Positions 6,682 to 63,877 of a stretch of 64,000 bases of DNA are shown here, in pieces (the stretch's first letter is position 1; each line of letters begins with the position of its first letter). The translations under genes were made by a program, and so were the position numbers. The stretch lies in the NCBI RefSeq assembly GCF_017355915.2, contig NZ_JAFEUV020000003.1:194858-258857 (forward strand). The letters are read 5' to 3'. The notes below the pieces were generated by a model that made no database searches, was not told where the DNA came from, and saw only the letters and a program-made list of their open reading frames with translations. This stretch comes from Telluribacter roseus (GTDB taxonomy: Bacteria; Bacteroidota; Bacteroidia; Cytophagales; Spirosomataceae).

Positions 6682-6703
6682 CCTATCTGGCTGGTTTATG
6701 TTT

Positions 6704-6733
6704 TTTGTACCTATTGTTGGTTCTACTTCCGAT
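6704..6733 (-). repeat. Short dispersed repeat, copy 2
   Basis: Differs from copy 1 by a single base over the 30-bp core. Its minus-strand reading continues GTKNINQ like copy 1 (GTKNLNQ), so copies 1 and 2 are closer to each other than to copy 3 at 7249-7278. Confidence 0.6.
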
Positions 6734-7220: not shown

Positions 7221-7445
7221 TTATAAAAAGAAATTTACTTCTAGCTTCTTTATACCTCTTATTGGTTCTACTTCCGATAAATCCATTTTATCAGCATCAA
7301 CTCTTCTGAAAGAGCCGACGTAGGGATAGCTGTCAAAGGTGGCTTTCCGAAGTGATATTGGCCCGATCTTGCGAACATCTTTAAGGCTATATAGTGGTAA
7401 GAATCCTTCCAGCGGTTTCGAACTGATAAGGGTTTTTAACAGGTG
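7221..7445 (-). pseudogene. C-terminal fragment of an unidentified gene
   Basis: On the minus strand a 74-codon open frame without a plausible start runs from a TAG at 7446-7448 to a TAA at 7221-7223. It reads like genuine protein (KPLEGFLPLYSLKDVRKIGP, then SYPYVGSFRRVDADKMDL and SEVEPIRGIKKLEVNF). The SEVEP-RG-K segment is matched by two shorter decayed copies at 2225-2254 and 6704-6733. I do not recognise the family; a transposon- or integrase-related tail is possible but unproven. Confidence 0.45.
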
Positions 7446-7728: not shown

Positions 7729-9171
7729 TTACTTTAAAAACTCACTCACTTCGTACTCCCTACTGAACCCCAGGCATGGGTAATGTTCAAGAATACCAAA
7801 ATGGGTGTAACCTCCTTTTCTGAACCGCTCCCGGATGAAGTCTCGCCTTTCCGCGGCTGATAGCATGCCTAAATAGGTATGGCCCAGTCTATGGAAGTAC
7901 TCTTTCAATGTATCGGCCGTAACAGTGGCGGGAAGCGTATCTTTATTGTGGAGCAGAATCAACTCCCAGCTTTTGCCTCTGTCAAGGTCTGCTATCAGAC
8001 TATCAAGTATGGCTTGCTCCTGGGTAGGAGTATCAAACATGGATGGTTCACCTACATCTAACTCCCCATCAGTGATAGTAGATTTCTCGTCTGAAATAGG
8101 TCTTGTGCCCTCTGGAAGGGAGGCAGGTGAGTGAGCCGTTTCCTGACGACTTCCCGCATGGCTGGAAGTAAGACAAGCCGAAGAGCCCTGTATCCGCTTG
8201 TGCCGGTACTTTCTGTAATCTACCCTCAGAAGATAATCGGCCAGATCAAGGCCCTGTTCCCTTTCTGGCTGAGTAGCTTTTTGCTCCAGAAAGTCCGACA
8301 CCACAAAGCTGGCCAAATCAGCATTTCTTTTGGTCTTTTCTACCCAGTCCCTGAAAGCTTTGCCATCTTTGGACAGATCAGGAAATAAGATCACCTTTCG
8401 GCCCCTTAGGGCTTGCAGTCGTTCATCGTTGAAGCCTTTCCCTCCGGTAGCCAGCCAGAGGTATCCGGGGAGGTAGATACTGGCGATGATGGCTGTTTTT
8501 TCACTCTCCACCAGGGCCACCACTTTTTCAGGTTCCTGCTCAAGCAGGTGCTCCCCATACAGGCATTGGCTGAGGTGATACTCCCTGCTGTCTTGTAGTC
8601 TGCTGTGAGCAAAGGTGATATGATCATAGGGTTCTTTCACTCTTTTGCCAGTGAGCCGGTTGTACAGCATGATCTTGCCTGTTCTAATCCTCCCTGCCTT
8701 GTCTTGCTGCCAGAAAATAGTAGCTCCCGGCCAGACATCAGAGGTGCCTATACCATAGAGCTCCTTCACTCCTTTGACTGCTTCCTCATCAAATCGGGCG
8801 AGGAGGAACTGGATGAACTGGTTGTCTTGCTCGCATTCGAGGCTCTTCTGGAAGACTTCGGAAGGGATATAGGAAACGGGTCTGGGCGGTGTTAGGGTTG
8901 GCTGGTGGGCTCGGCATCCGAAGCCCCACTCCTTATCCTTTTCATAGATCAGCCGGGAGTACCCAACTTTGTACGGGCTCAGGTGATAGCCACAACTGAC
9001 TTCGCGGTCGCAGCGGCCGTACTGTTCAGGCAGAAGCTCTTCGGTATGGGTATCGATGTATCTCACGAATTTACGCCTGGCTCCACAACTGGGGCAGGTT
9101 TCTTTATCACCTGGTATCTTATAAGGTTTAAGAATAAATCTGTACTGATTACTTGACATACCTAGGAACAT
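7729..9171 (-). CDS. DUF6371-type primase-like protein with zinc finger and Toprim-like core
   Basis: 480 residues. An N-terminal zinc-ribbon-like motif uses Cys26, Cys29, Cys54 and Cys60 (CPSCGARRKF ... CDREVSCGYH), as in the CHC2-type fingers of primase-related proteins. Residues ~215-275 carry a Toprim-like core: VALVESEKTAI, then ATGGKGF, then ILFPDLSKDG. The rest of the middle matches what I recall of DUF6371 proteins from Bacteroidota mobile elements. The likely role is priming or initiating replication of the element, together with the ATPase encoded upstream. Residues ~330-400 look like a low-complexity linker before a helical C-terminus. A second ATG at 9159 is equally plausible as start. 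The iteron cluster sits directly upstream. Confidence 0.7.
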   Translation of the reverse strand: MFLGMSSNQYRFILKPYKIPGDKETCPSCGARRKFVRYIDTHTEELLPEQYGRCDREVSCGYHLSPYKVGYSRLIYEKDKEWGFGCRAHQPTLTPPRPVSYIPSEVFQKSLECEQDNQFIQFLLARFDEEAVKGVKELYGIGTSDVWPGATIFWQQDKAGRIRTGKIMLYNRLTGKRVKEPYDHITFAHSRLQDSREYHLSQCLYGEHLLEQEPEKVVALVESEKTAIIASIYLPGYLWLATGGKGFNDERLQALRGRKVILFPDLSKDGKAFRDWVEKTKRNADLASFVVSDFLEQKATQPEREQGLDLADYLLRVDYRKYRHKRIQGSSACLTSSHAGSRQETAHSPASLPEGTRPISDEKSTITDGELDVGEPSMFDTPTQEQAILDSLIADLDRGKSWELILLHNKDTLPATVTADTLKEYFHRLGHTYLGMLSAAERRDFIRERFRKGGYTHFGILEHYPCLGFSREYEVSEFLK

Positions 9172-9216: not shown

Positions 9217-9333
9217 AACGTTGGAACGTTGGAAAAAACGTTGGAAAAAGTAGATTTCCAACGTAATGGAAGGGCTGGAAGAACGTTGGAAGTTGGAAAT
9301 TGCCTATATAGGGCTTTTCCAGTTTCCAACGTT
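9217..9333. repeat. Iteron cluster (AACGTTGGA), candidate replication origin or operator
   Basis: Direct copies of AACGTTGGA start at 9217, 9225, 9237 and 9282. An inverted copy ends the block (TCCAACGTT, 9325-9333), another inverted partial copy lies at 9257-9264 (TCCAACGT), and a half copy (GTTGGAA) follows 9291. The cluster fills the gap between the stop of the ATPase gene and the start of the primase-like gene. Such arrays are typical of Rep-bound origins or autoregulatory sites; which applies here is an inference. Confidence 0.75.
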
Positions 9334-9341
9334 ATTAGGGG

Positions 9342-10616
9342 CTATGAACCTGCCGGCCTGTAAGGATTGATTGCCTGGAGCCGATACACAACTTCTTTGC
9401 CCGCCTTCGCCTTGATCAAGCTGCAGGCCTGGCCATGCTCATTGTGCAAGGTGGTCTCTTCTTCTATGATCGTACTAAGGCGCTCACTAATGGTTCTTGC
9501 GGAGGACTGGAAATCCTCGCAAAGCTTTTTCATCAGTTCAGACTTAGGTAGGGGCTGTCCATCCCCCAGGTAAGCTTCCAGGAGCTCTACCAGGTCTTCC
9601 ACCTCAGCCTTATGCCTGCGCTTGTTTACTAGTTCGGACATGTCGGATGCATCTGCCAGTACAAGTCCCTTTGCCTCCTGGGAATATTTGATGTGGAAGG
9701 GATCCAGACGCTTTGTGCTGCGGCACTTCAGAAACTTTACCCGGATCAGGTCCGTATCGTTCTGACTAGCATCCTTTTCAAAACCTACCTGAATAACCGT
9801 AGAGGCCTTGTTCATGATCTCGGTTCCCAGGTGCCCCCGGGCCTTTTCACCTCCCGGATTTTCATGAATGAGAGCCAGGAAAGTAACATCATACTGGTTG
9901 ATGTAGAGATTCATCAGGTCTAGCAGCTGCATGCTGTCTTCGGTACGGTTGAAATCCCGGATGCAGTCCGTAATGACATCCAGTACTATGAAGATGTGCC
10001 TGTCGGGATGCTGCTCACGTGTAAAGTCCAGATACTCCTGCAAAGCATAAAAGCGCTGTCTCCGTTCAATATCCAGCAAGGAGATAAAGTCGAACTGTTC
10101 GGGCTGTTCTTCGATACTATACCCGGCTTTAAGCTGGATAGACTGCAAAGCATAGGGTAATTGTTCTTTCAGGTTACGCTCGGTATCCACGTACAGCACC
10201 CGGAAGTCTCTGGTGAAGTTCTTGGCAAAGCCCAGTAATTGGGTCTCATCCCCGGTCAGAGGATCTCTCAGCAGGAAGCAGGAACTGAGTACCTCAGCGA
10301 GCCGTGACTTATGAACACCCGCCTTGCCCTGGATGACATTAATCGTGTTGGGGAAGATCACTGGATCCGCACCACGCCTTATGATCGGCTTGGTAAACTC
10401 GATCCTGCGGGTTTTTGCCACTTTCAGCAGCAGCTGACTGTCCAGGATCTTTTGCAGGTTCTTACTGATCTTAGACTCTGCGGAGTTCTCATCCCTTATG
10501 GCCGGATCACTGAGAGTAGCTGTCCTTTCTTCTATATGGCTTTCTAATTCATTAAGTACAGTTAAATCAGCTTCCGAGCCAGAGTCGGTGTTTAGATTTT
10601 TATGTATATTTATCAT
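9342..10616 (-). CDS. RepA-like AAA ATPase / replicative helicase of the mobile element
   Basis: 424 residues. Walker A is GKAGVHKS at residues 97-104, with His in place of the usual second Gly, as in AAA_25/RepA-type ATPases. Walker B is HIFIVLDVITD (~200-210), followed by ALIHENPGGEKARGHLGTEI (~250-270), a typical sensor segment of hexameric RepA/DnaB-like ATPases. The C-terminal ~90 residues (VEDLVELLEAYLGDGQPLPK, SSARTISERLSTI) look like a winged-helix module. It probably loads or unwinds at the element's origin. It is read leftward from the leader-controlled promoter near 11050, behind a small ORF, and ahead of the iterons and the primase-like gene. I see no frameshift. Confidence 0.75.
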   Translation of the reverse strand: MINIHKNLNTDSGSEADLTVLNELESHIEERTATLSDPAIRDENSAESKISKNLQKILDSQLLLKVAKTRRIEFTKPIIRRGADPVIFPNTINVIQGKAGVHKSRLAEVLSSCFLLRDPLTGDETQLLGFAKNFTRDFRVLYVDTERNLKEQLPYALQSIQLKAGYSIEEQPEQFDFISLLDIERRQRFYALQEYLDFTREQHPDRHIFIVLDVITDCIRDFNRTEDSMQLLDLMNLYINQYDVTFLALIHENPGGEKARGHLGTEIMNKASTVIQVGFEKDASQNDTDLIRVKFLKCRSTKRLDPFHIKYSQEAKGLVLADASDMSELVNKRRHKAEVEDLVELLEAYLGDGQPLPKSELMKKLCEDFQSSARTISERLSTIIEEETTLHNEHGQACSLIKAKAGKEVVYRLQAINPYRPAGS

Positions 10617-10652
10617 TAGAAAAAAAATTAAGCATTACATCATTCCTGTTGT

Positions 10653-10680
10653 AAAGAGCGGCTTCCTATGGTCGCTCTTT
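10653..10680 (-). other. Hairpin between the small ORF and the ATPase gene
   Basis: AAAGAGCG at 10653-10660 pairs with CGCTCTTT at 10673-10680. It lies in the 69-bp gap between the 58-residue ORF and the ATPase start. It could be a weak terminator, an RNA processing site or a translation control element; it lacks a long U-run. Confidence 0.4.
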
Positions 10681-10685
10681 ATTGT

Positions 10686-10862
10686 TTATAGGCCCTCACT
10701 ACCTATCTGCTCTACGATTTGCCTATTGATAGGTATACTGCCATTCCTGCCTACTGATGCGTCTGAACTAGTTGAGCCTTTCCGGGCCTTGTCCTGTTGA
10801 GAGAAAGGCCTCACTCTTACCTTCTCCATGGAGCTGGTAGATGTTAGGACTTCTGATCTCAT
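10686..10862 (-). CDS. Small basic protein of the element's replication operon (58 aa)
   Basis: An ATG at 10862-10860 opens a 58-residue frame ending TAA at 10688-10686. It reads MRSEVLTSTSSMEKVRVRPF... and ends IPINRQIVEQIGSEGL. It is Ser/Arg-rich without a recognised domain. The ORF starts 29 nt after the intrinsic terminator of the leader and is followed by the ATPase gene in the same direction. Small accessory or excisionase-like proteins are common at this position in integrative elements, but nothing in the sequence proves that role. No ribosome-binding site is evident. Confidence 0.4.
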   Translation of the reverse strand: MRSEVLTSTSSMEKVRVRPFSQQDKARKGSTSSDASVGRNGSIPINRQIVEQIGSEGL

Positions 10863-10890
10863 GGTACTGACTGGTTTTGGAATAGTTTAG

Positions 10891-10930
10891 AAAAAGAAAA
10901 GGCCCGCATAGGTGGGATGAACTATACGGG
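10891..10930 (-). terminator. Intrinsic terminator inside the leader of the replication operon
   Basis: Minus-strand stem CCCGTAT...ATGCGGG (10930-10924 with 10909-10903, one G-U pair) followed directly by CCTTTTCTTTTT (10902-10891). Its place 29 nt upstream of the first ORF suggests conditional termination. Confidence 0.65.
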
Positions 10931-11040
10931 CGTGGCTGCCATCGAGGGCAACCAGTATCTTCGGCAATACATCGCGCTACATCCCATGACTGCGATGTAT
11001 TGCTATTCTCAATGATCGAATAAGTGGCTTCTCTTTCGAT
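10891..11040 (-). ncRNA. Candidate structured leader RNA / sRNA with four stem-loops
   Basis: Transcribed leftward from the -7 box at 11053-11046, the first ~150 nt can form four successive hairpins. (1) ATCGAA 11035-11040 with 11015-11020. (2) A perfect 12-bp stem GCAATACATCGC at 10992-11003 with 10964-10975. (3) GGTTGCC 10947-10953 with GGCAGCC 10934-10940 (one G-U). (4) A stem at 10924-10930/10903-10909 followed by the U-rich run CCUUUUCUUUUU. No ORF of note lies inside. It could be an attenuator for the replication operon or a free sRNA, analogous to small regulatory RNAs of other integrative elements. Confidence 0.55.
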
Positions 11041-11045
11041 AGAGG

Positions 11046-11064
11046 CAAATATAAGTGCACTTAT
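11046..11064 (-). promoter_or_regulatory. Leftward promoter with overlapping 14-bp palindromic operator
   Basis: TATATTTG on the minus strand (11053-11046) matches the Bacteroidota -7 consensus TAnnTTTG exactly. The perfect palindrome ATAAGTGCACTTAT (11051-11064) overlaps its upstream edge, where a bound repressor would block polymerase. The obvious candidate is the divergently encoded two-HTH regulator at 11271. The -33 element is weak (ATTTC-like). Confidence 0.5.
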
Positions 11065-11191
11065 CAGAAATTAACATACATGTAGGCAAAAATTATGTAT
11101 TTTCCATGATAGGAGTATATTACTGTCTGCTGCTGTCAGTGTTATATTATGGTAACATTTGCTGTATTAATAGCCAGTAATACGCCTCAGA

Positions 11192-11223
11192 TTTGACTAT
11201 TTTGTTATCTTTCGTTAACATTG
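11192..11223 (+). promoter_or_regulatory. Rightward promoter of regulator-integrase pair
   Basis: TTTG at 11192-11195, a 20-bp spacer, then TAACATTG at 11216-11223 (7 of 8 matches to TAnnTTTG). Initiation would fall near 11230, about 40 nt before the GTG start. Confidence 0.5.
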
Positions 11224-11270
11224 TAGCAGTATTTGTACTCCATGTTGTTACAATTTAGCAGGGACAAAAG

Positions 11271-12128
11271 GTGACAGATAAAAGCATTGCTGATAGCAGA
11301 CTGATCAGGGCTACTAAGATTAAAGTGTACATAGAGCAGTACACGGAAGGAAAACATAAAGCCTTCGCGGAACTGGTGGGTATCCTGCCTTCTAATTTAT
11401 CGCAGATGATCTCCGGCAGGCGTCCCATCTCCGATCGTATATGGCACCGGATCCACAGCCGCCTGGGGATAAAAGAAGTAGCAGCGCCCAGGGATGTACA
11501 GGGGGGGGGCAGCAGTCAATCAGCCGCTACGAATCACGAGGGAGAGCAGCTCAGAAAGTGGCTTATTGAACAGGGCATTGCTCAGAAGGAGCTGGCTGAA
11601 AAGCTTGGCGTTAGTACAGTAGCTGTCCACAACTACCTGAAGACAGAACACTTTCGGGCTGATACACTCAGAAGTATAACGGATGTCTTCGGTGTTTCTG
11701 AAAACGAGATTTTGGGACAAAGGAAAGATCAGCGGATACGGGAGGGCTATTTGCCGTTAGTAAAGGTTGGGCAGCGTAGAAATACGAAGTGGAAAGAACT
11801 AAGCTACTTATATGTAGGGGATAATTATAAAGAGGGGGGAGTGGTATTTGAACTTGGGCACGATGGATTGCAGTCCCCCTTTGCTCCGGGCTGGCAAGTC
11901 ATAGGTGTAGAGGTTGCTTCTGAACGCTACAAGTTCACAACGGGATTGGTAGCGGTGCAGTTTGATGATACGATCCAGATCCGCCGGATTCGTAGGAATG
12001 ACATTGTATCACATGGCTACCTGGTGCTGGAGTCTGATGATCCCAAAGGAGATATAATCACCGTATTGAAAGAGGATATTCAAAAACTGTGGACAATTAA
12101 TAGTATAATCAAAGGTACTTTGCAATAG
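11271..12128 (+). CDS. Element repressor: two HTH domains plus S24-like C-terminus
   Basis: 285 residues, GTG start. The first XRE-type HTH is at ~20-60 (FAELVGILPSNLSQMISGR), the second at ~95-150 (IAQKELAEKLGVSTVAVHNY). The C-terminal ~130 residues resemble the S24/LexA-CI fold (LVLESDDPKGDIITVLKEDI), but I see no convincing Ser-Lys autocleavage dyad, so SOS-type self-cleavage is doubtful. It probably keeps the element quiescent by binding the palindrome at 11051-11064. A run of nine G's (11501-11509) lies in the linker between the HTH domains and could make expression slip-prone. The integrase starts 2 bp after its stop, so the two are cotranscribed. Confidence 0.75.
   Translation: MTDKSIADSRLIRATKIKVYIEQYTEGKHKAFAELVGILPSNLSQMISGRRPISDRIWHRIHSRLGIKEVAAPRDVQGGGSSQSAATNHEGEQLRKWLIEQGIAQKELAEKLGVSTVAVHNYLKTEHFRADTLRSITDVFGVSENEILGQRKDQRIREGYLPLVKVGQRRNTKWKELSYLYVGDNYKEGGVVFELGHDGLQSPFAPGWQVIGVEVASERYKFTTGLVAVQFDDTIQIRRIRRNDIVSHGYLVLESDDPKGDIITVLKEDIQKLWTINSIIKGTLQ
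11501..11509 (+). repeat. G9 homopolymer inside the repressor gene
   Basis: Nine consecutive G's encode the GGG linker between the two HTH domains. A one-base slip would cut the protein after the first HTH. Direct evidence of length variation is not available from one sequence. Confidence 0.8.
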
Positions 12129-12130
12129 TA

Positions 12131-13441
12131 ATGGTAGGAGGTTCATTCAAGTTTATTCTACGGGATAGACCCAATGAAGACGGTACACATACAGTTCGGC
12201 TGCGCTACGCTTACAACCAGAAGGATTACAAAAGAAATACGAACGTACGTGTAAAACCTAGAGAGTTCTATCCCAAAGGGACGCTGAGTAAGGCTAACTG
12301 GATAAGGCCCAGCAACTCGAATTATGCTATTCATAACGCTACATTGAAGGCCATTTTTGAAAGTGCATTAAAGGCATATAATAAGCTTCTGGAGCTAGAA
12401 ATAGAGCCTACAGTAGAGAATGTAAAGAATGCGCTGAAGGGATCATTGGATGCACTTGAGCCAGAAGAGGTACAGGAAGGGTGTTACCTGGAGTATTTTC
12501 AAAATGCTATTGAGCTGATGCGCCAGGAGCCGCAGCATCGGCGTACGGCCATGAACTATGAGGCGATCTACAATAAGTTTAAGGAGTTTGTCGGTAAAGA
12601 TCGACTACCTTTCTCCCAGCTCACTCCAAAGCTGATAAGAGACTATGAACTGTGGGAGTTACAGCGCAATGGACGTACCACCGTTAGTAAATCGCTGCAA
12701 CGTATGAACAAGATTTTTAAGGATGCTGCCAAAGAAGAATTACCCGGTACCGAAAAGAATCCATTCCGCAACATCAAGCTGTCCTTTGAATCAAGGGAGA
12801 AGGAAAAGCTCGAGCTGGAAGACTTTTACAAGCTGGGGGAATTGGAGCTTGATCCAGGTAAGAAGGAGTACCACGTCAGAAATCTATTCATGTTCCTCTT
12901 CTATGCACATGGAATGCGGATTGGAGATGCCTTGACGTTGAAGGGGCAGGACATTAGGGAAAGTAACGGTATATATACTATTTACTACAAGATGGAGAAG
13001 ACTAATAATAGGGTAGAAGTAGAAATACCCTTTCCAGCTTTAAGTTTCATAGGGGAATACTTACAGTCGAAGAAGTATAACAAGTTCCTGTTTCCATTTC
13101 TCAATAATAGCCTCGATTTTTCCGATCACTGTTTCCGATCCCGGCAGATAGAAGCGAAAACAGCCTATATAAATAAAGTTTTAAAGCAATTAGCTAAGAA
13201 GGCAGGGTTAATCAAGGGATATAACGATGCAGGTGAGCCTGAATTTAAAAATCTTAGCTGTCACGTAGCCAGGCATAGTTTTGCAGACCTGGCAAGGAGG
13301 AAGGGAATTGACCTCTATGTGATCAGCAAGGCCCTGCGACATAGCAGCGTTAAGATTACGGAGCAATACCTCTCATCGTTTGATGCAAAGGCCGTCAATT
13401 CAATCAATCATATCTATGAAGATGGTCCTAAAAAGGCTTGA
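12131..13441 (+). CDS. int: Tyrosine site-specific integrase
   Basis: 436 residues, usual length for Bacteroidota phage/ICE integrases. The N-terminal arm-binding domain is at ~1-60 (FILRDRPNEDGTHTVRLRY), the SAM-like core-binding domain at ~115-215. The catalytic domain carries Arg263 (HGMRIGDALTL), His378 and Arg381 (HVARHSF), His404 (LRHSSVKIT) and the nucleophile Tyr413 (EQYLSSF), so it appears active. It integrates and excises the element by recombination at att sites. It starts 2 bp after the repressor gene and is followed by a tandem 12-bp repeat and, 180 bp on, a terminator. Confidence 0.92.
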   Translation: MVGGSFKFILRDRPNEDGTHTVRLRYAYNQKDYKRNTNVRVKPREFYPKGTLSKANWIRPSNSNYAIHNATLKAIFESALKAYNKLLELEIEPTVENVKNALKGSLDALEPEEVQEGCYLEYFQNAIELMRQEPQHRRTAMNYEAIYNKFKEFVGKDRLPFSQLTPKLIRDYELWELQRNGRTTVSKSLQRMNKIFKDAAKEELPGTEKNPFRNIKLSFESREKEKLELEDFYKLGELELDPGKKEYHVRNLFMFLFYAHGMRIGDALTLKGQDIRESNGIYTIYYKMEKTNNRVEVEIPFPALSFIGEYLQSKKYNKFLFPFLNNSLDFSDHCFRSRQIEAKTAYINKVLKQLAKKAGLIKGYNDAGEPEFKNLSCHVARHSFADLARRKGIDLYVISKALRHSSVKITEQYLSSFDAKAVNSINHIYEDGPKKA

Positions 13442-35401: not shown

Positions 35402-35431
35402 TATAAGCCGCTAATGCATTAGCGGCTTATA
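35402..35431 (+). terminator. 30-bp perfect palindrome after TM2 gene
   Basis: TATAAGCCGCTAATG / CATTAGCGGCTTATA is a complete palindrome, followed by CTTTCATT. It probably terminates the TM2 transcript. Confidence 0.6.
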
Positions 35432-35490: not shown

Positions 35491-35528
35491 CAAAAGCCGC
35501 CTGACGAGTACTCGTCAGGCGGCTTTTG
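35491..35528. terminator. 38-bp perfect palindromic bidirectional terminator
   Basis: CAAAAGCCGCCTGACGAGT at 35491-35509 is mirrored exactly to 35528, with AAAA and TTTT at the ends. It sits between the convergent TM2 and receiver genes and can stop transcription from either side. Confidence 0.85.
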
Positions 35529-62927: not shown

Positions 62928-63407
62928 TTACTCCTGAGTATGGTACGGTACCAGCTCTTCAAAAAGGTACTGCGGATCGTACTGTACCCCAAATTTTTCC
63001 AATAGCCCAATGTACTCCTCCCGGAAGGTCTCCTTGCGGTGGTGTGCCTCCTGATTCTGTATGTAGCGGTACACCCGGTCGATGTGGGAGCGGCTGTACG
63101 AGAAAGCCCCGTAGCCCACCTGCCACTCGAAGCGGCTGGGGAGCAGTCTGCTTTCATTCACCCACTTGGACGACTTCGCTTTAGCCTGCTGCATTACCTC
63201 CGAAAGCGCTACGGTAGGTTTGAGGCCAAAGAAGCAGTGGACGTGGTCTTCAACGCCGTTGACGATGATGGTTTTGCAGCCCGTTTCATTGATGAGGTTG
63301 CCAATGACCGCCATCAACTGCTCCTTCCATTCCTTATGAATGATTGCCTCGCGGTACTTCACCGCAAACACCGCCTGTATGTAGAGTTGTGTGTAGCTGT
63401 TCGGCAT
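62928..63407 (-). CDS. REP-associated tyrosine transposase / IS200-like (Y1, HUH)
   Basis: 159 residues, usual for single-domain Y1 transposases. The HUH metal site is HVHCFFGLKP and the catalytic Tyr is in RYIQNQEAHHRKETF. It nicks and joins single-stranded DNA at hairpins. No IS200 ends flank it tightly; instead palindromic repeats (63484-63877) lie directly upstream, as for RAYT genes that maintain REP elements. The frame is intact from MPNSYTQLYIQAVFAVKYRE onward. Confidence 0.85.
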   Translation of the reverse strand: MPNSYTQLYIQAVFAVKYREAIIHKEWKEQLMAVIGNLINETGCKTIIVNGVEDHVHCFFGLKPTVALSEVMQQAKAKSSKWVNESRLLPSRFEWQVGYGAFSYSRSHIDRVYRYIQNQEAHHRKETFREEYIGLLEKFGVQYDPQYLFEELVPYHTQE

Positions 63408-63483: not shown

Positions 63484-63877
63484 AGCCTACCCCTGACTAA
63501 ACTCAGGGTGTACCACATCGGACGTTTCTACAAGATTGGTCGTGCCTCTGGCACAAGAGCGTCCAGCCTACCCCCTGACTCAACTCAGGGGGTACCACAT
63601 CGCTCGTGCCTCTGGCACTACCCGTTACCCTACATCATCCGTTTCTACAAGATTGGGCGTGCCTCTGGCACTCTGACGTGATCCACAGTGCCAGAGGCAC
63701 GAGCGATACAGCAAGCCGGGAGTTCAGTCCCGGCACGTGGCGGGGTATAGCATTACCTACCACTATCCACAGTGCCGTAGGCACGAGCGATACAGCAAGC
63801 CGGGAGTTTAGTCCCGGCACGTGGCGGAGCACGGCACGAACGATATACGCCAGACCCGGACTTCAGTCCGGGCTACC
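63484..63877. repeat. REP-like palindromic repeat cluster next to RAYT
   Basis: Rightward units: 63484-63554, 63565-63618 and 63639-63671, sharing AGCCTACCCC(C)TGACT hairpins and/or a GTGCCTCTGGCAC tail. Inverted units: 63681-63743 and 63765-63827 (63 bp each, 84-bp period), with the stem CCGGGA-TCCCGG and an inverted GTGCC...GGCAC. A sixth hairpin lies at 63847-63877 (CCCGGACTTCAGTCCGGG). Orientation switches near 63675. Confidence 0.85.

Follow-up and report, generated by a model that had tools for sequence, protein, structure and literature searches.

Results and Discussion

Organization of the locus

The window considered here, that is the whole stretch of DNA analyzed (64 kb out of the 6.3-Mb genome of Telluribacter roseus, G000), carries on its minus strand a predicted structured RNA of ~150 nt (10890-11041; fold z-score about −6 on the minus and −2.3 on the plus strand), in a locus that appears to be part of a small integrated mobile element. 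As the initial annotation had it, this RNA and its terminator lie upstream of replication genes that are read leftward. These are a gene of the replication module encoding a primase/helicase-type ATPase (424 aa; 9342-10616, minus strand), which shows a weak match to phrog_239 and none in Pfam or NCBIfam, and a gene encoding a 480-aa protein (7729-9171, minus strand), for which a primase-type function is suggested by its Zn ribbon, DUF6371 and PG0870 N-terminal domain. (The matches from a literature search on the primase family names bear titles that concern other matters, which does not imply absence from print.) A 58-codon ORF (10686-10862, minus strand) is located between the terminator and the helicase-type gene, and no homologue of it was found in the 69 loci compared (best E-value of 0.67 outside the window's own copies). 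The gap between the two larger genes (9217-9336) contains AACGTTGGAAA units repeated in direct and inverted orientation, possibly iterons of a replication origin, and a 13-bp hairpin at 10651-10682, ~35 nt before the helicase-type start codon, is terminator-like on the plus strand.

Divergently from the RNA, on the plus strand, lies a gene for a phage-type repressor of 285 aa with an HTH domain (11271-12128), whose GTG start codon corresponds to the ATG in two relatives and whose product matches the phage repressor family phrog_4 over most of its length. The usual serine motif of the S24 peptidase is, as judged by eye, presumably replaced in this protein; given this apparent replacement, the repressor may not be self-cleaving. 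A tyrosine recombinase gene (436 aa; 12131-13441, plus strand) follows downstream. A Pfam scan of six proteins recognized no relaxase and no transfer gene. We rejected the repeat at 6695-6733 and 7240-7278 as a candidate pair of att sites. It recurs at 2216-2254, elsewhere in G000 and in G219, and the extra copies have no such recombinase nearby, as judged in the stretches examined of G219 and G000. This dispersed intergenic repeat (2216-2254, 6695-6733 and 7240-7278) centers around TTGGTTCTACTTCCGAT.

A stable predicted fold on the minus strand

The minus-strand fold of positions 10880-11045 has a computed energy of −58.6 kcal/mol, as compared with −37.2 kcal/mol (sd 3.35) for 200 dinucleotide shuffles (z-score of −6.4), none of which was as stable. 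The strand comparison performed on 10884-11041 (60 shuffles each) gave z-scores of −6.1 for the minus and −2.3 for the plus strand, and the much weaker plus-strand value points to an RNA that is read leftward; two G-U pairs and a U tract suit the minus strand only. In a control tiling of both strands of the window (160-nt tiles, 12 shuffles each, fixed sd of 3.4), 5 of 798 tiles fell below a z-score of −6, the RNA tile being the fifth lowest, and several of the extreme tiles proved upon refolding to be long, perfect terminator-like or palindromic hairpins. Overall, the fold is more than chance, yet not unique within the window.

The predicted fold, read in the direction of transcription, consists of three hairpins followed by a strong intrinsic terminator, all of which had been described in the initial annotation and were recovered here: H1, a weak hairpin of 5 bp (11004-11022; −1.1 kcal/mol); H2, a perfect 12-bp hairpin with a 16-nt loop (10964-11003; −17.7 kcal/mol); H3, an 8-bp hairpin with one G-U pair (10933-10954; −12.2 kcal/mol); and the terminator (10931-10902; −14.9 kcal/mol), whose 10-bp stem with six G-C pairs and one G-U pair encloses a 10-nt loop and is followed by the U-rich tail CUUUUCUUUUUC. 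A terminator scan limited to loops of 3-8 nt left this terminator out, its loop being of 10 nt. As a sequence feature, the leftward RNA with its terminator is likely real.

The window's strongest folds include the long palindromic GTGCCTCTGGCAC-type repeats clustered at 63521-63840, next to a minus-strand gene (62928-63407) whose product we take to resemble a REP-associated Y1 (IS200-like) transposase. Elsewhere, two neighboring long perfect palindromes of 30 and 38 bp (35402-35431 and 35491-35528) are perhaps bidirectional terminators.

Promoter box and candidate operator

An exact TAnnTTTG match to the Bacteroidota sigma-A −7 box, TATATTTG, is indeed present on the minus strand at 11053-11046, where it had been pointed out before. 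This motif is not rare, with 34 exact occurrences on both strands of the window versus ~30 expected from base composition, and the box taken on its own is weak evidence of a promoter. A −33 motif (TTTG/TTG) was not found, the 27 nt upstream of the box containing no TTG; according to the available part of PMC7366714, such a motif at about −33 could likewise not be identified in F. johnsoniae. In Flavobacterium psychrophilum, as described in the accessible portion of PMC9723704, the −7 box sits at −12 to −5, and the same placement here would put the transcription start at ~11041. On the minus strand between the terminator and the helicase-type gene there is no exact TAnnTTTG, and the only one-mismatch version in this gap lies 14 nt ahead of the start codon, at 10630. 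The replication operon would seem to be served by no other strong promoter.

The box was said to touch a perfect 14-bp palindrome. The palindrome, ATAAGTGCACTTAT (11051-11064), is indeed perfect over 14 bp as seen in the sequence; rather than touching the box, it overlaps it by three bases. It is the sole perfect palindrome of at least 12 bp starting within 10600-11300 and one of eight perfect palindromes of at least 14 bp in the 64 kb. To judge from its position, and from nothing else, this candidate operator would be bound by the divergently encoded repressor. No recognizable copy of the palindrome was found beside the two related repressors, the best matches having four (L036) and five (L037) mismatches, a quality equaled by 157 of 1000 and 636 of 1000 shuffles, respectively.

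Loop complementarity, pairing and a possible terminator switch

The loops of H2 and of the terminator contain perfect 7-nt complements, UGGGAUG (10986-10980, minus strand) and CAUCCCA (10919-10913, minus strand), which might form a kissing contact. Seven Watson-Crick pairs between these loops were reached by 174 of 20,000 loop shuffles (646 of 20,000 with G-U pairs allowed), and the five other loop pairs reach two or three pairs; as all six loop pairs had been looked at, the complementarity is suggestive only.

The four larger genes of the element were examined for pairing of their 5′ regions with the loops of the RNA, and this was no better than in 100 shuffles. With the whole RNA, the predicted duplex with the helicase leader has −74.6 versus −65.9 (sd 5.0) in 40 shuffles, which were mononucleotide shuffles only; this is ~1.7 sd below the shuffles, and the 5′ regions of the other three genes gave no such difference.

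Folding of nascent lengths revealed a competing pairing of 4 bp between the 5′ arm of the terminator and an upstream stretch before the 3′ arm emerges. Blocking the terminator changes the fold from −58.6 to −43.8 kcal/mol (a cost of 14.8 kcal/mol), and no antiterminator of comparable stability was found in the RNA, these 4 bp being all that competes. As modeled, the RNA by itself has no self-contained antiterminator and nothing suggesting a switchable attenuator. A 16-codon leader ORF, MYCRRYWLPSMAATPV, has its start codon inside the 12-bp stem of H2, and its stop codon coincides with the end of the terminator 5′ arm; by our estimate, an ORF of this length is readily given by chance.

Distribution of the RNA and of the flanking modules

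A DNA search of 222 genomes of the family returned the RNA in its own genome; the one further result was an exact 20-nt match in G137 (E-value of 0.008) that lies inside an ORF and was judged to be due to chance; the same kind of search in 390 genomes of the order returned its own genome alone. A covariance model, built from the single sequence entered as two identical rows and hence devoid of covariation content, recovered only the own genome among the 222 of the family and, among 395 genomes of the class, the own genome and two weak matches in one genome each (E-values of 0.0014 and 0.013). We accepted neither of these: one (L090), located at the end of an unrelated ORF, aligns mostly by the terminator end, and the alignment of the other (L091) rests mostly on scattered weak pairing. 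In all searches of more than 40 genomes stricter filters were applied, by which weak matches are lost, and the family, order and class sets overlap. In a set of 34 sources that included the window, the model matched none of the other 33, and the window's own H2 stem was also matched on the opposite strand (E-value of 0.93).

Similarly, blastn and nhmmer applied to 31 stretches upstream of helicase-type genes detected the RNA in the window's own copy alone, the other matches being four short ones in blastn (E-values of 1 to 3.6) and one in nhmmer (E-value of 0.5, L030). A DNA search of phages and plasmids with 701 bases gave none. In viral contigs there was no relative of the helicase-type, repressor, recombinase or primase-type proteins and no exact H2 hairpin; a 17-mer present in four of these contigs was set aside as near chance by estimate. 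Rfam gave no match above the gathering threshold in the 64 kb and, at E-values of up to 5, five matches within 10600-11300, all far below the gathering scores. By these comparisons the RNA is known from one genome, with no convincing homologue in the collections searched.

Of the 222 family genomes, 66 have matches to the helicase-type gene (E ≤ 1e-10) and 58 have matches to the repressor (E ≤ 1e-8); for the recombinase, 3 genomes out of 198 have matches at E ≤ 1e-60 (each count includes the own genome). The closest helicase-type relative in genome contigs comes from a Persicitalea MAG (L004, to which L006 is identical over 4242 bases; the same sequence also occurs under G050, which belongs to the window's family). 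It is 66% alike in the helicase-type and 54% in the primase-type protein, compared with only 23% in the recombinase, and has the replication genes without the RNA. The two close relatives of the repressor (50% in G219 and 49% in G174) are accompanied by the recombinase (44% and 41%, respectively), and there the RNA is not present, the divergent gene beginning ~140 bp from that of the repressor. Since relatives of the two modules are shared separately, and each without the RNA, the RNA is located where two separately traveling modules meet.

Terminator-like sites (unbroken stems of at least 7 bp) were present in 8 of the 31 helicase-upstream stretches including the window's own, i.e. in 7 of the other 30 (29 distinct, L006 being part of L004), after L001 and L002, which are the window again, had been dropped. 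Within 300 nt of the match start only two others have such a site, L020 (at 187 nt, 7 bp) and L024 (at 78 nt, 10 bp), distances being counted from the start of the tblastn match rather than from the start codon. On this sequence evidence, a terminated leader of this kind is not a general feature of related replication modules.

Interpretation

The reading that we prefer, if only tentatively and with somewhat less than even confidence, is that a promoter under repressor control gives rise to a leader RNA, most of which is terminated, and that this leader throttles the replication genes. The minus-strand promoter at ~11053-11046 would be blocked when the neighboring repressor occupies the palindrome (11051-11064). 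Otherwise, a transcript would start at ~11041, fold into stable hairpins and in most cases end at the intrinsic terminator near 10890 (a degree of termination that we infer for the site at 10902-10931), with only the read-through fraction continuing into the 58-codon ORF and the helicase-type and primase-type genes. Acting in series with the repressor, the leader would throttle the replication module to a fixed degree and would yield a stable RNA of ~150 nt. This reading is supported by the minus-strand-specific stability of the fold and a terminator with its U tract on that strand only; by the exact −7 box and its overlap with a palindrome that is the region's only perfect one of at least 12 bp; by the phage-type repressor encoded divergently and the replication-type genes downstream; and by the lack of an exact TAnnTTTG between the terminator and the helicase-type gene and of a comparable antiterminator. 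On the other hand, the RNA was not found in relatives and the two related repressors have no recognizable copy of the palindrome next to them. The elaborate fold is also left unexplained, as a fixed throttle needs neither the 12-bp stem of H2 nor the loop complement. Even so, we consider this the most economical working model. From the original proposal of an attenuator or sRNA that limits replication on top of repressor control, it retains the leftward RNA, the terminator and the repressor gene next to the palindrome; it drops regulated attenuation, for want of a comparable antiterminator, and the support for repressor control comes from position, no recognizable palindrome lying beside the two related repressors.

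The main rival, which we regard as possible but rather unlikely, is an independent gene for a trans-acting sRNA that pairs with another transcript of the element or the host, the promoter of the replication operon being further downstream. A stable multi-hairpin fold with its own terminator and the large single-stranded loop of H2 would suit such an RNA, and sRNAs of mobile elements are known, going by the parts available of the reports on RteR (PMC7366714) and sgm-sRNA (PMC9299015). It is disfavored by the loops, which do not pair with the 5′ regions of the four larger genes any better than shuffles do, by the whole-RNA duplexes, where only the helicase leader departs from shuffles, and by the lack of a good promoter downstream of the terminator. 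If the choice between termination and read-through were instead made by a factor, or by translation of the 16-codon ORF, the RNA would be a regulated attenuator. The positive evidence for this amounts to the position, the 4-bp competing pairing favored before the 3′ arm emerges, and a chance-sized ORF ending inside the terminator stem; with the start codon of that ORF buried in the 12-bp stem and a cost of ~15 kcal/mol for blocking the terminator, we find it improbable.

The perfect complement in the two big loops would be accounted for if the loops of H2 and the terminator paired over 7 bp, intramolecularly or between two RNAs, as a concentration sensor that changes termination or makes dimers. 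The significance of this complement is modest, and weaker still given the six loop pairs examined, and there are no relatives of the RNA in which to look for its conservation; such a kissing RNA seems to us very unlikely. We would give a little more credit, albeit still as a long shot, to a specific version in which the contact serves an immunity or copy-control RNA particular to this Bacteroidota element: it would be repressor-controlled, would fold with H2 and the terminator in kissing contact, and would act in trans on the leader of incoming or induced copies, forcing termination ahead of the replication genes, in functional parallel to the P4 CI RNA. Equally remote, in our estimation, as a kissing RNA of the general kind is a fold that has no further role, its terminator merely separating joined modules, or else DNA hairpins that form a single-strand initiation site. 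The RNA does have on one side a repressor-recombinase module that G219 and G174 share and on the other a replication module like that of the Persicitalea MAG (66% and 54%); the terminator, however, points into the replication genes and not out of them, and the strong minus-strand bias speaks against a role at the DNA level.

Returning to the throttling leader, if it does gate the helicase-primase genes, it would add an RNA layer beside the usual repressor in a small and testable system. To our knowledge, there are few descriptions of replication being controlled by RNA in integrated elements of Bacteroidota. According to PMC7366714, the sRNAs known in Bacteroides before that study numbered just two. 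For now, the ~150-nt RNA counts as a plausible candidate sRNA, of which there are many.

Comparison with known systems

A literature search on attenuated leaders in integrative elements gave nothing close among the matches listed, which does not imply absence from print. In the P4 satellite, an integrated element, a structured leader, or CI RNA, and termination come first in the replication operon, and the CI-type immunity RNA has boxes complementary to the downstream leader. This is possibly the nearest functional parallel, which we take as a lead only: in both cases a short structured RNA and termination precede the replication operon. Here no clear complementary boxes were found in the downstream leader, with which the whole RNA pairs ~1.7 sd better than shuffles and the loops alone no better, and a gene for a protein repressor is also present.

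Closer in taxonomy, RteR of CTnDOT is, according to the available section of PMC7366714, an RNA of 90 nt that acts in trans on the tra operon. It is likewise a small RNA of a Bacteroidota mobile element, the analogy being one of general role; the RNA described here precedes replication-type genes, and no transfer gene was recognized among the six proteins scanned. For sgm-sRNA of SGI1, the accessible part of PMC9299015 describes an active RNA, required for mobilization, that is generated from the 3′ end of a longer transcript, in contrast to the present RNA, which would end at the terminator. Finally, in pMV158, as outlined in the portion available of PMC4485353, CopG acts together with the antisense RNAII, which blocks repB translation. 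There, as would be the case here, a replication gene is held by a protein repressor and an RNA; RNAII is antisense, whereas the RNA upstream of the helicase-type and primase-type genes runs in sense with them.
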